Source of the DNA: Actinomycetota bacterium
GTDB taxonomy: Bacteria > Actinomycetota > Coriobacteriia > Anaerosomatales > Anaerosomataceae
Reading direction: 5' to 3'
Assembly (NCBI GenBank): GCA_009773565.1
Contig: WSXY01000016.1
Location: 1-33,844 of the forward strand
DNA length: 33,844 nucleotides
Positions 15,395 to 23,450 of this stretch are shown piece after piece. Within the stretch, counting starts at the first letter, position 1. The number at the start of each line of letters is the position of its first letter. The notes under the pieces are model-generated. The model saw only the letters and a list, made by a program, of their open reading frames with translations. It was not told where the DNA came from and did not search any database. The position numbers were made by a program, and so were the translations under genes.

Positions 15395-15772
15395 ATGCGT
15401 ATGGGACACCTGATTCTAGTGATGTTTGGCGGCGCGCTCGGTGCGGGCGCGCGTTACGCCGTGGGCACGTTCGTTGGGAGCAAGTCAGGCGGCTTCCCGT
15501 GGGCGACGTTCGGTGTGAATGTCACCGGCGCATTCCTACTGGGGCTTCTCATGGGCGCCCTCGCAAGTAACGACGCGGCAGAGCCGTGGCGCCTGCTGTT
15601 AGGAGTCGGTGTGCTCGGGGGCTTCACGACGTTCTCCGCCCTGGCGTACGAGACACTCACACTGGCGAGCGACGGCGCGATGAGCCTCGGGATCCTGAAC
15701 ATGGCGGGAACCGGTGTCGCCGGTCTCCTCGCAGCCGCGCTCGGTCTCGTCGTCGGTCGCGCGCTCGCCTAG
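15395..15772 (+). CDS. crcB: Fluoride channel FluC/CrcB
   Basis: 125 aa with four membrane segments. Family signatures: MFGGALGAGARYAVGTF in TM1, WATFGVNVTGAFLLGLL in TM2 (with the pore Asn) and GVLGGFTTFSALAYET in TM3, which holds the central sodium site and fluoride-track Phe residues. It functions as a dual-topology dimer exporting fluoride; a single gene suggests a homodimer. ATG 15395 is used, although ATG 15401 is also possible. No fluoride riboswitch fold is seen, and there is no room for one if the promoter just upstream is real. The stop overlaps the stop of the convergent ATPase gene through a shared CTAG. Confidence 0.93.
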   Translation: MRMGHLILVMFGGALGAGARYAVGTFVGSKSGGFPWATFGVNVTGAFLLGLLMGALASNDAAEPWRLLLGVGVLGGFTTFSALAYETLTLASDGAMSLGILNMAGTGVAGLLAAALGLVVGRALA

Positions 15773-17925
15773 CGCTTCTTCAGCAGCCGCAACCCGTTCG
15801 CGATGACGATGAGGGCAACGCCGGTGTCGGCGAACACGGCCATCCACAGCGTCGCCTTGCCGAGAATCGCGAGCACGAGCACCGCGAACTTCACCACGAT
15901 CGAGAGCGTGACGTTCTGGGTGATGTTCGCGACCGTACGGCGGCCGAGTGCGAAGAAGCCCGGCAGCGCCGAGAGGTCGTCTCGCATGAGTGCGACATCG
16001 GCGGTCTCGACGGCAGTGTCGCTTCCGGCGGCGCCCATCACGATACCGAGGTCGGCCGCGGCGAGCGCAGGTGCGTCATTGATGCCGTCGCCTACCATCG
16101 CTACCACCCCGTACCGTTCTCGCAGCAGGCGGATCGCGTTCGTCTTGTCCTCGGGCAGGAGTCGGGCGTGGTACCCGCTCAGCCCGGCGCTCCCGGCAAC
16201 CGCAGCAGCGGTACGTTCGTTGTCGCCGGTGAGCATGACGAGATGCTCGATACCCGCAGCACGCAACGCGGCGGCGGTCGGTGCGGCCTCGGGACGCACG
16301 GTATCGGCAACTGCAAGGTAGCCGAGTGCCACACTGTCGGCGATCAGCACGAGGACGGTGCGTCCGGCCTCCTCGGCATGCTCGATGCGTGTCGCAAGCG
16401 ATTCAGCAACGTCGCCGATCTCTGAGGCGAACGATGGGCTTACAAGTCGGATGTGACGACCGTCGATGACACCGGCGACGCCACGGCCGGGAAGCTCCTC
16501 GAATGCTGCTACGGGCGCGAGCGTAGCGCCCTCGCGCTCCCCGTGCGCGACGACCGCGCGCGCGAGCGGGTGGTTCGAATTCGCTTCAAGCGAGACGGCG
16601 AGCGCCAGAAGGGCCTGCGGCTCTTCGGCGAAGACCTCGACGACTTCGGGTTTACCGAACGTCAGGGTGCCCGTCTTATCGAACGCGATCGCACGAACCT
16701 TCGCGGCTGTCTCTAGGAACGCGCCGCCCTTCACGAGGATCCCGTCGCGCGAGGCCCGCGTGATCGCCGAGACGATCGCAACCGGCGTGGAGATCACGAG
16801 CGCGCACGGGCACGAGATCACGAGCAGCACGAGCGCGCGGTAGAGCCACGATTCGAAGCCGCCCCACGGCTGTCCGAGCAGCGCCCCCGCTATCGGCGGC
16901 ACGATCGCGATGAAGACCGCGAGTCCCACCACTGCGGGCGTATACCACCGCGAGAAGCGCTCGACGAGTTGCTGCGACGGCGCCTTGGCGGCCTGCGCCT
17001 CCTCGACAAGGAAGATGATGCGCGCGAGCGTGGAGTCGGTCGAGATCGCCGTGACCTCGACCTCTACTAGACCGCTCGTGTTAAGCGAACCCGCGAAGAT
17101 GCGATCGCCCGTTGTCTTGTCGACCGGCACCGACTCGCCCGTCACAGGAGCTTCATCGAACGCCGAGGAGCCGGTCGCGATGACGCCATCGAGCGCCACG
17201 CGTTCGCCGGGCCGAACGATGAGCGTCTCGCCGATGAGAACCTCGGCAGGTGGGACGAGCACGTCGGCTCCGGACCGACGCACGCGGGCGAGCTCGGGCT
17301 CGAATGCCAGCAGGTCGCGAATCGAGCGGCGCGTGCGCGCAAGCGAGCGCGACTCGAGCCAGCCCCCAAGCGCGAACAAGAAGATGACGGTCGCGCCCTC
17401 CTGCCACTGACTGATGGCCGCCGCGCCGATGACAGCGATCGTCATGAGCACGTTCATGTCCAGCATGCGGGCCTTGAGTGAGACAAGCGCACGTCGCCAC
17501 GTGATAGTGCCGCCCGCGAGAATCGAGAGCGCATACGCGATTATCGCGACAGCGGCGGGCACCTCGAGCGCGTCGAGTCCCCACCCGAGCGAGATGAGCG
17601 CGCCGCTCGCTACGATCGCGACAGTCGTGCGGTTCGATTCCCACCACGACGACGGCGAGAGCTCGGCCGCGCCCTTACCGAGCGCCTCGATACCGTGTCC
17701 GCTCTTGCGCACGAGCGCCACGACCGTGTCCCGAGGATCGATCGCTGTGTCGTAATCGATCGTCAGCAGGCCGCTCGCGAAGTTGACGTCAGCGCACAGC
17801 ACCCCGGGAATACCGGTAACTGACGCGCCGACGGCGCGCGCACAATCCGGTCAATCGAGTCCCGTGAGCCGGTAGACGGCCGCGGCTGAGGTCGACGGCT
17901 CACTCACCTCATCGTCCACCCTCAC
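15769..17925 (-). CDS. Selenocysteine-containing P1B-type Zn/Cd/Pb-transporting ATPase (UGA at codon 25)
   Basis: 718 aa if the in-frame TGA at 17851-17853 is read as selenocysteine. The GTG at 17925 has AAGGAG 8 nt upstream and overlaps the end of the PH-domain gene by 17 nt. Codons 1-60 form a heavy-metal-binding domain: VYRLTGLD, then U25-P-D-C28 where CxxC is expected, then ARAVGASVTGIPG and VNFASGLLTIDYD. The transporter body is complete: TGES actuator loop, membrane CPC (372-374), phosphorylated Asp416 in DKTGT, HP (451-452), GDGINDAP (612-619), then K679 and D700 in the last two helices, the pattern of ZntA-like Zn/Cd/Pb exporters. Starting downstream of the TGA would discard half of the metal-binding domain. 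Alternatives are a nonsense mutation or sequencing error, but the SECIS-like hairpin argues against both. Confidence 0.85.
17812..17853 (-). promoter_or_regulatory. Candidate bacterial SECIS element
   Basis: Reading the minus strand, UGA is followed after 18 nt by a 3-nt apical loop GUC closed by a stem of six Watson-Crick pairs plus one G-U (GCGCGCC with GGCGCGU). A G in the first loop positions at 16-37 nt from UGA is what the bacterial SECIS model requires for SelB. A lower helix pairs ACCGG, beginning at the A of UGA, with CCGGU at 17812-17816. Not computed; folded by eye. Confidence 0.75.
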
Positions 17926-18451
17926 GGGCGCGGCTCCTTCGCGAATCGAGCTCGTGGATGAAGCGGTCCTGCTCGTCCGGCGAGATGCCATACCGCTCGC
18001 CACCGGCGGCGATGAGCACAACACCGCGATGCGACCGGGTCGAGCACATCTTCACGATGCCGATACCCCCGCCGTACTGCACCTTCCAGAGCGCAAGGCC
18101 CGGGAAGCGGAAGCTTGACCACGGCGAGAAGCGCAGATTCTCGATGCGAACGTCGGTGATGCTCGCGTACGGCAGGGCGTAGCGAAGGATCGGACCGTAG
18201 GTGATCACGAGCGCGTCCGATGTGAGGTCGTAGCGCATGCGCGGGAAGAACGCGATCGTGACCAGGAACCAAACGACGATCACGCCAATGAGCGCGTAGG
18301 TGCCGATTATGATGGCAAGGGCCTCGGCCGGTATCGGCTCCGCAAAGAGGGCTGCCGTCATAGGGACGACCATCGCGATCGCCAGTGCGAGCACCCAGAG
18401 CCACCCGAGGGACGGGAGCGGTCGGTAGTGTTCAACGGGCTCGGCGTTCAT
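17909..18451 (-). CDS. PH-domain-containing membrane protein
   Basis: 180 aa from ATG at 18451 (AGGGGAG upstream; a second ATG at 18472 lacks one). Two N-terminal membrane segments (GWLWVLALAIAMVVPMTAALF and a second ending VVWFLVTIAFFP) are followed by a cytoplasmic bacterial PH-like domain: RYDLTSDALVITYGPILRYALPYASITDV, then GGGIGIVKMCSTRSHRGVVLIAA and GISPDEQDRFIHELD. This layout matches small bacterial PH-domain membrane proteins of unknown role. Its last 17 nt contain the ribosome-binding region and start of the ATPase gene, so the two are probably translationally coupled. A link to metal export is only contextual. Confidence 0.8.
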   Translation of the reverse strand: MNAEPVEHYRPLPSLGWLWVLALAIAMVVPMTAALFAEPIPAEALAIIIGTYALIGVIVVWFLVTIAFFPRMRYDLTSDALVITYGPILRYALPYASITDVRIENLRFSPWSSFRFPGLALWKVQYGGGIGIVKMCSTRSHRGVVLIAAGGERYGISPDEQDRFIHELDSRRSRAREGGR

Positions 18452-18549
18452 CGGCTCCCCTATCGGCATGGTAACTTCGCACAATCCTACACCGCACCTC
18501 TGTTGCGGGGGTATCATCACCGCAGAGACCGCAAACACCAGGGGGAGTC

Positions 18550-22568: not shown

Positions 22569-23450
22569 TCAAGTTGCCAGGCGCTCGAGGTAGGACAGCC
22601 GGTACTCCACCGGAGTCCGATATCCAAGCGTCGAGTGCATACGCTGTCGATTGTAGAACAGCTCGATGTAGGAGAAGACGTCTTGCTTCACCTCCTCGAG
22701 ATCCTTGTAGTCCTTGTGGTGGATGCACTCGCGCTTAGCCGAGGAGAAGAAGCTCTCCGCCACCGCGTTGTCGAAGGGGCATCCGCTCTTCGACATCGAG
22801 CCCACGATCCCGTTGTCGGCCAGCATGCGCATGAAGCTCTTCGACGCGTACTGGATGCCGCGGTCGGAGTGGAAGACCGTCGGCGTATCGGTGACGCCGC
22901 GCCTGGCTATCGCCGAGGACAAGGCGCGCTTGACCAACTCGACATCGATCGACTTAGAGAGCGCGTGTCCGATCACTTCCCGGTTGAACAGGTCGATCAC
23001 GACCGCCAAATACGTCCACCCGAGCCTGGTCTTGATGTAGGTGATGTCACCAGCCCACACCTCGTTGGGACGAGGTGCGAAGAAATGCTGGTCCAAGGCG
23101 TTGTCGAAGAACCTGCCGTCGGCCTTGCCGGAGCGACCAGGGCGGAAACGTCTTGTCGTGATGGGGTAGAGGCCGGCTTCGCGCATGATTCTTCTCACCT
23201 TGTACTCGGACACGGCAAGACCGCTCTCGTTGAGCGCCCGCGACATCTTGCGGTAGCCGTAGACACGTCGGTTGTCCTCGAAGACCTTGCGCACGTGGCG
23301 CGTGAGGTCGCGGTACGCCTCGGCGCGCTCGGCACGCTGCTGCCGTCTCCTCTTCCACTGCCAGTAGGCAGAAGGCTTCAGCCCGAGCGCTTTGCACATC
23401 TTCTCCACGGTAAAGACGGGGCTGTGACGAAGGATCGCTTCGTACTTCAT
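22569..23450 (-). CDS. IS3-family transposase OrfB (DDE integrase core)
   Basis: 293 aa. An N-terminal HTH_21-like region (VRKVFEDNRRVYGYRKMSRALNE, KVRRIMREAGL) precedes the rve catalytic core: first Asp in WAGDITYIKTRLGW, second in VFHSDRGIQYAS, Glu in FDNAVAESFFSSAK, then YNRQRMHSTLGYRTPVEY. ATG overlaps the orfA stop (ATGA), and an A6 run about 40 nt upstream lets a -1 shift join OrfA and OrfB. All catalytic residues are intact, so it could be active. Confidence 0.92.
   Translation of the reverse strand: MKYEAILRHSPVFTVEKMCKALGLKPSAYWQWKRRRQQRAERAEAYRDLTRHVRKVFEDNRRVYGYRKMSRALNESGLAVSEYKVRRIMREAGLYPITTRRFRPGRSGKADGRFFDNALDQHFFAPRPNEVWAGDITYIKTRLGWTYLAVVIDLFNREVIGHALSKSIDVELVKRALSSAIARRGVTDTPTVFHSDRGIQYASKSFMRMLADNGIVGSMSKSGCPFDNAVAESFFSSAKRECIHHKDYKDLEEVKQDVFSYIELFYNRQRMHSTLGYRTPVEYRLSYLERLAT

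Follow-up and report, generated by a model that had tools for sequence, protein, structure and literature searches.

A putative SECIS element and its codon context in the gene of a predicted selenocysteine-containing heavy-metal ATPase of Anaerosomatales

The ATPase gene, its hairpin and the closest described systems

The SECIS elements of fdhF and fdnG in Escherichia coli are stem-loops right after the in-frame UGA, with the loop starting 18 nt beyond it and G as the first letter of the loop. The hairpin described here, on the minus strand of the window (the whole 33,844-nt stretch of DNA analysed), resembles these elements in its in-frame position, 18-nt spacing and loop-initial G; however, it has a GUC triplet loop, a longer uninterrupted stem and no bulged U, and its host gene encodes an ATPase and not an oxidoreductase such as the formate dehydrogenases. 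The Sec genes for FdhA of the same order also have the E. coli-like spacing of 18 nt, with the loop GGUCU. From the comparison of sequences, the hairpin at 17823-17839 is very probably a bacterial SECIS in the gene of a selenocysteine (Sec)-containing heavy-metal ATPase. The grounds for this reading are the frame, homology before and after the UGA, the exchange of Sec and Cys, a hairpin register conserved only among Sec genes, and the Sec machinery of the genome.

The available text of the review PMC13188914 lists a cation-transporting ATPase selenoprotein with a UxxC motif and gives Zhang & Gladyshev 2007 as the original source. The ATPase of the window can be likened to it by description, through the superfamily model TIGR01525 and the UxxC, and the kind of protein (Sec UxxC ATPase) is already known; the order-wide set, the Sec/Cys exchange and the two hairpin types reported below are absent from the description in that part of the review. 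Sec ATPases of Natronincola, Alkaliphilus, Thermincola-like and other organisms (L114, L118, L134, L147, L151, L152, L158 and L176) carry, at the corresponding position of HMA, the motif G[VIL]DU..CA, but have ~41-46% identity to the ATPase of the window, other hairpins, and GAC instead of GAT before the UGA.

The ATPase has the domain order of ZntA and other Zn/Cd/Pb P1B ATPases of the Cys form, with HMA (PF00403) at residues 18-77 followed by the E1-E2 ATPase and HAD domains; however, it has a predicted Sec in place of the first HMA Cys and stays below the ZntA-specific curated cut-offs of the equivalogs NF008262 (594 against 1005 bits) and NF033775 (523 against 1240 bits). It passes the heavy-metal P1B ATPase model TIGR01525 (585 bits; curated cut-off 346) as well as the cadmium-family model TIGR01512 (511 bits; cut-off 313.5), the latter being, together with PRK11033, the best-matching model, and these family models point to a pump of the Zn/Cd/Pb type. 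One in-frame TGA breaks the ATPase frame, and the readthrough product has 718 residues (Table 1). The start codon is placed at GTG 17925 from a GGAG upstream. The gene of a bacterial PH-domain protein (17909-18538) overlaps the ATPase start with its end by 17 bases, which suggests translational coupling, and a transposase with HTH and rve integrase domains (22572-23450) is found near the ATPase region.

Table 1. Features of the putative Sec ATPase gene and its hairpin (coordinates of the window)
Feature	Coordinates	Strand	Details
Putative Sec-containing heavy-metal P1B-type ATPase	15769..17925	(-)	718 aa if read through, U25; predicted start GTG 17925
U directly 5' of the UGA (GAU codon)	17854..17854	(-)	GAT in 38/38 Sec and 3/13 Cys orthologues
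In-frame UGA, putative Sec codon	17851..17853	(-)	first Cys position of HMA CxxC, GLDUPDCA; TGA in 38/51 orthologues, Cys codon in 13
Candidate SECIS, 5' arm GCGCGCC	17833..17839	(-)	codons 5 and 6 after UGA: CGG/CGC and ACC/GCC in 38/38 Sec genes
Candidate SECIS, apical loop GUC	17830..17832	(-)	loop G 18 nt after UGA; G in 37/38 Sec genes
Candidate SECIS, 3' arm GGCGCGU, type 1 register	17823..17829	(-)	fold and compensatory G-C/A-U pair
Lower helix ACCGG (17851-17847) / CCGGU (17816-17812)	17812..17851	(-)	present in the MFE structure of the window, not conserved

A sequence-only reading of this DNA had proposed the hairpin, with its spacing and loop G, together with a lower helix that encloses the UGA. 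The coordinates and the RNAfold structure bear out the hairpin, and the proposed two-helix structure is both the minimum free-energy (MFE) and the centroid structure, at -21.6 kcal/mol for 43 nt and -24.6 kcal/mol for 58 nt. In the consensus model of the bacterial SECIS in the available text of PMC13188914, the loop has 3-9 nt with G at one or both of its first two positions and lies 16-37 nt from the UGA, the upper stem has 4-16 bp, and the MFE is -7.5 kcal/mol or lower. With a stem of 7 bp, a 3-nt loop (GUC) 18 nt from the UGA and an MFE of -19.4 kcal/mol over 39 nt, the hairpin lies within all of these limits. Nevertheless, a single sequence proves nothing here, because some shuffled sequences and many ordinary codons do as well. 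Among 200 dinucleotide shuffles, 5 (43 nt), 16 (58 nt) and 7 (81 nt) fold as well as the original, and the energy z against synonymous-codon shuffles is -1.08. The published rule is passed by 7097/12589 (56%) sampled ordinary codons of these genes when a stem of at least 5 bp is required, and by 1921/12589 (15%) with at least 7 bp. By itself, the hairpin is within chance for GC-rich DNA, and it is beyond chance once homologues are compared. Rfam, searched at gathering and permissive thresholds, gave no relevant match to the hairpin.

Sec and Cys orthologues and the two types of hairpin

In the 69 Anaerosomatales (Coriobacteriia) genomes searched, 51 orthologues have a readable HMA; this codon is TGA in 38 of them and TGC or TGT in 13. 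One HMA was counted per locus (the first GLDxPDC motif), and the set is taken without the second HMA domains of Cys forms, the partial locus L091 and the paralogue group B. In the register defined by a loop start 17 or 18 nt after the codon, a loop of 3-9 nt and a stem of at least 5 bp, which was set after the alignment had been viewed, a stem is present in 38/38 Sec and 1/13 Cys orthologues. A stem with the loop G is present in 37/38 Sec against 1/13 Cys orthologues (Fisher p 1e-9, kinship uncorrected), L043 with its loop UUG being the sole Sec gene that lacks the G. The synonymous codon usage of each gene would give 5.5 stems in 38, and elsewhere in these Sec genes the background is 2336/24750 codons. 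The contrast is weaker when the published spacing is left unrestricted and at least 6 bp are required (36/38 Sec against 4/13 Cys; background 31%). The median pairing probability of the 5' arm is 0.98 in Sec and 0.12 in Cys genes, and the energy z-scores separate the two groups less (medians -0.59 and 0.48, respectively; p 0.005). Neither Sec homologues without the hairpin nor Cys homologues keeping it equally well, the two outcomes that the sequence-only reading had set against itself, were found.

A maximum-likelihood tree was made from the part of the protein encoded downstream of the hairpin; it holds 49 of the 51 orthologues (all but the fragments L076 and L077) and 3 outgroup rows. The distribution of Sec and Cys needs 5 changes on this tree, 3 of them forced by well-supported branches. 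For the independent Sec/Cys pairs on well-supported branches (n = 3, sign test p 0.25), nearly all pairings are in the expected direction, the others are equal and none is opposite.

The hairpins of the Sec genes are of two types with a common 5' arm, located 12-17 nt after the UGA. In type 1, the type of the window (13 genes), this arm pairs with the codons right after a 3- or 5-nt loop, and in type 2 (25 genes) CGGAC pairs with GUCCG ~4-6 nt further on, giving a 9-nt loop (CGUGNNNNN). The type 1 state must have changed 3 times or more on the tree, and well-supported branches force each of these changes. There are two architectures, with a loop of 3(-5) nt and of 9 nt, which have been interchanged at least three times, dragging the amino acids along, and this shows that the putative SECIS of this gene has been rebuilt several times in evolution within the order.

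Base pairs were counted in 12 of the 13 type 1 rows (L030 is identical to L028) and in 22 of the 25 type 2 rows (without L036, L048 and L067). At columns 19/27 of type 1, 7 of the 12 rows have G-C and the other 5 have A-U; the change is compensatory, and on its 3' side the difference is synonymous, GGC/GGT (or AGC/AGT). The covariation of type 1, a check already suggested along with the hairpin, is above that of all slid versions and of all except 7/500 shuffles. The stem of type 2 is 100% paired with 5/6 pairs unchanged, and gives little evidence of covariation because it hardly varies. The encoded residues differ as well. At residue 8 after the UGA, type 1 genes have Gly (9/13) or Ser (4/13), with Gly in 0/25 type 2 and 0/13 Cys genes, and residue 9 is Ala in 12/13 type 1 and Lys in 20/25 type 2 genes. 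By these counts the protein changes with the RNA type, and the earlier claim of a structure kept on top of a coding constraint comes out stronger than it was stated, since the protein itself varies in this way.

The same comparison separates the upper hairpin from the lower helix. The lower helix had been described as enclosing the UGA as in fdhF; it does exist in the window, but it is not conserved, since within type 1 only 50% of cells pair and the A-U pair with the A of the UGA is found in 2/12 rows. The window element does not have the conserved lower helix reaching the UGA that characterises the fdhF-type two-helix form, and on the 50% pairing among the 12 type 1 rows this helix was discarded as a conserved part. 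A functional element made up of both helices and the UGA, with the upper hairpin alone being insufficient, is therefore improbable, even if both helices are in the MFE structure of the window and type 2 has another lower helix, CUGC/GCAG, with 79.5% of its cells paired. In addition, the ribosome with the UGA in its A site covers the part of the mRNA that holds the lower helix, and in E. coli the minimal upper stem-loop suffices.

The number of HMA domains is two or three in many Cys forms, and in L052 a Sec HMA (GLDUPDCA) is followed 225 bases on, in the same frame and in one ATPase locus, by a Cys HMA (GLDCADCA). The Cys-form orthologue of genome G049 (L060) has one in-frame TAA, corresponding either to a decayed gene or to an assembly error.

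Decoding of the UGA and the Sec machinery

The codons of the upper hairpin are constrained at wobble positions that are fixed in the Sec genes only. Where residue 6 after the UGA is Thr, its codon is ACC in 30/30 Sec against 1/10 Cys genes, while ACC accounts for 605/1457 of the Thr codons in the remainder of these Sec genes. Additionally, the codon for Arg5 in Sec genes is CGG or CGC only, and codon 9 has a final G in 38/38 Sec and 8/13 Cys genes. This fixation counts against the UGA being a true stop or a decayed or mis-sequenced codon, in which case the ATPase would start downstream (GTG 17802), the HMA would not be intact and the hairpin would be a by-product of the GC-rich composition. 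The downstream start of the open reading frame at 17802, and a hairpin that by itself is within chance for such a composition, agree with this reading; however, TGA occupies exactly the same codon in 38 genomes, with Cys there in 13, and the protein homology runs through this codon and upstream of it, which makes it very unlikely.

The genome of the window has the tRNA-Sec (anticodon UCA), selA (605 bits), selB (380 bits) and selD with an in-frame TGA, all on the same contig, and with these four components it falls among Sec-decoding genomes (selA, selB, selD and tRNA-Sec). Reassignment or suppression of the UGA without a SECIS (for example to Trp or Cys), the hairpin being conserved for some other reason, is hardly credible in view of this machinery, of TGA as the second commonest stop (134/325 called ORFs in 400 kb of this genome) and of the loss of the hairpin where the codon is Cys. 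Conservation of the register, wobble fixation in Sec genes only, the compensatory change and the complete Sec machinery all argue for a SECIS function of the upper hairpin, as first proposed. In such a SECIS, SelB would bind the hairpin 3' of the in-frame UGA and Sec would be inserted at the UGA of the HMA domain, where the selenolate could act as a soft metal ligand in the amino-terminal domain of the pump.

For an order with few cultured members (PMC9686372 describes cultivated strains), this adds a widespread selenoprotein metal pump, and with the 13 natural Cys counterparts, paired orthologues can be used to test what Sec costs and what it brings in metal binding. One orthologous gene shows a SECIS that is kept, rebuilt and lost. 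The open-licence literature gave no relevant paper on selenoproteins in Coriobacteriia and no recognisable description of synonymous constraint in the bacterial SECIS, both being weak evidence of absence.

A second, more distant HMA ATPase (group B, GITULDCAAKF), ~44% identical to the first, has TGA at the HMA CxxC in 13/13 contexts, and the genome of the window carries both. Its hairpin is its own and longer, with the stem GUUC/GAAC and the loop GAGAA 21 nt after the UGA (L082, G000 contig C7; L078-L089). The group B ATPase is adjoined in several genomes by another ATPase, which has no HMA. In-frame TAGs in two other ATPase matches (on G000 contig C7 and on G008 contig C1) were considered as a second recoding event and ruled out, being the normal ends of a small HMA gene just before an ATPase with its own ATG.

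The base before the Sec UGA

The letter directly before the UGA is also fixed in the Sec genes of the ATPase (Table 1), whereas GAT is used for 258/1213 of the Asp codons in the rest of these genes and for 2696/7111 in 400 kb of the genome of the window. Other Sec genes of the order have the same base. The codon before the Sec UGA is ACT in 12 and ACC in 1 of 13 group B ATPases, GGT in 30/30 SelD loci, with the SelD of the window's genome likewise GGT, and CTT in 11/11 Sec loci of FdhA, with CTG in both Cys FdhA loci. In total, U precedes the Sec UGA in 91/92 genes of four families of the order that are at most distantly related, in genomes that are related, so the counts are not independent (window 17854; L203, L205-L210, L212-L214, L216; L217-L246; L078-L089); before ordinary TGA stops, U is found in 13/134 cases (400 kb of the window's genome).

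In the rest of the phylum, a non-random set of 49 Sec selD loci, hand-picked among the listed TGA-bearing matches and not counting that of the window's own genome, has GGC in 25, GGT in 14, GGG in 9 and GGA in 1; the 3 of them from other Coriobacteriia all have GGT. Outside the order, the Sec ATPases have GAC before the UGA in 8/8 (seven outside the phylum; L176 from another family of the phylum). From these differences, U before the Sec UGA is a habit of the order, perhaps of the class, on which all four gene families and the Sec/Cys contrasts concur.

No consistent partner for this U was seen on the 3' side of the SECIS when the alignment was inspected by eye. Three further families gave no data for the U rule: the HesB-like seleno model was found in 0/69 genomes, glycine reductase B likewise in 0/69 with a control that was equally silent, and YedE is present in genomes of the order without internal stops. 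In the open-licence literature, no recognisable description of the 5' context of the bacterial Sec UGA was found (weak evidence of absence), which hints that a U as a fixed letter before it is unreported.

As a guess, the wobble U of the P-site codon may weaken termination or favour the delivery by SelB at the UGA. Here it is proposed, with slightly more confidence than doubt, that an obligatory U before the Sec UGA in the order, perhaps in all Coriobacteriia, acts together with a SECIS whose 3' arm, with the 5' arm staying in place, has slid several times between a 9-nt and a 3(-5)-nt loop and forces residue changes in the HMA helix (e.g., Gly), RNA recoding thus sculpting the protein. It is the sliding hairpin types and this U that merit further study. 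If functional, the U would add a 5' determinant of recoding to the bacterial SECIS model, which lacks one in the available text of PMC13188914, and it would sharpen the prediction of Sec genes in a field where, at 5 bp, the current model lets through more than half of ordinary codons.

Exchange between the two forms of the ATPase is also indicated outside the order, where the Sec forms L114, L118 and L134 stand against L138, a Cys form is found in Anaerovirgula, and a Sec form occurs also in another actinobacterial lineage; several separate Sec/Cys exchanges have probably taken place there.
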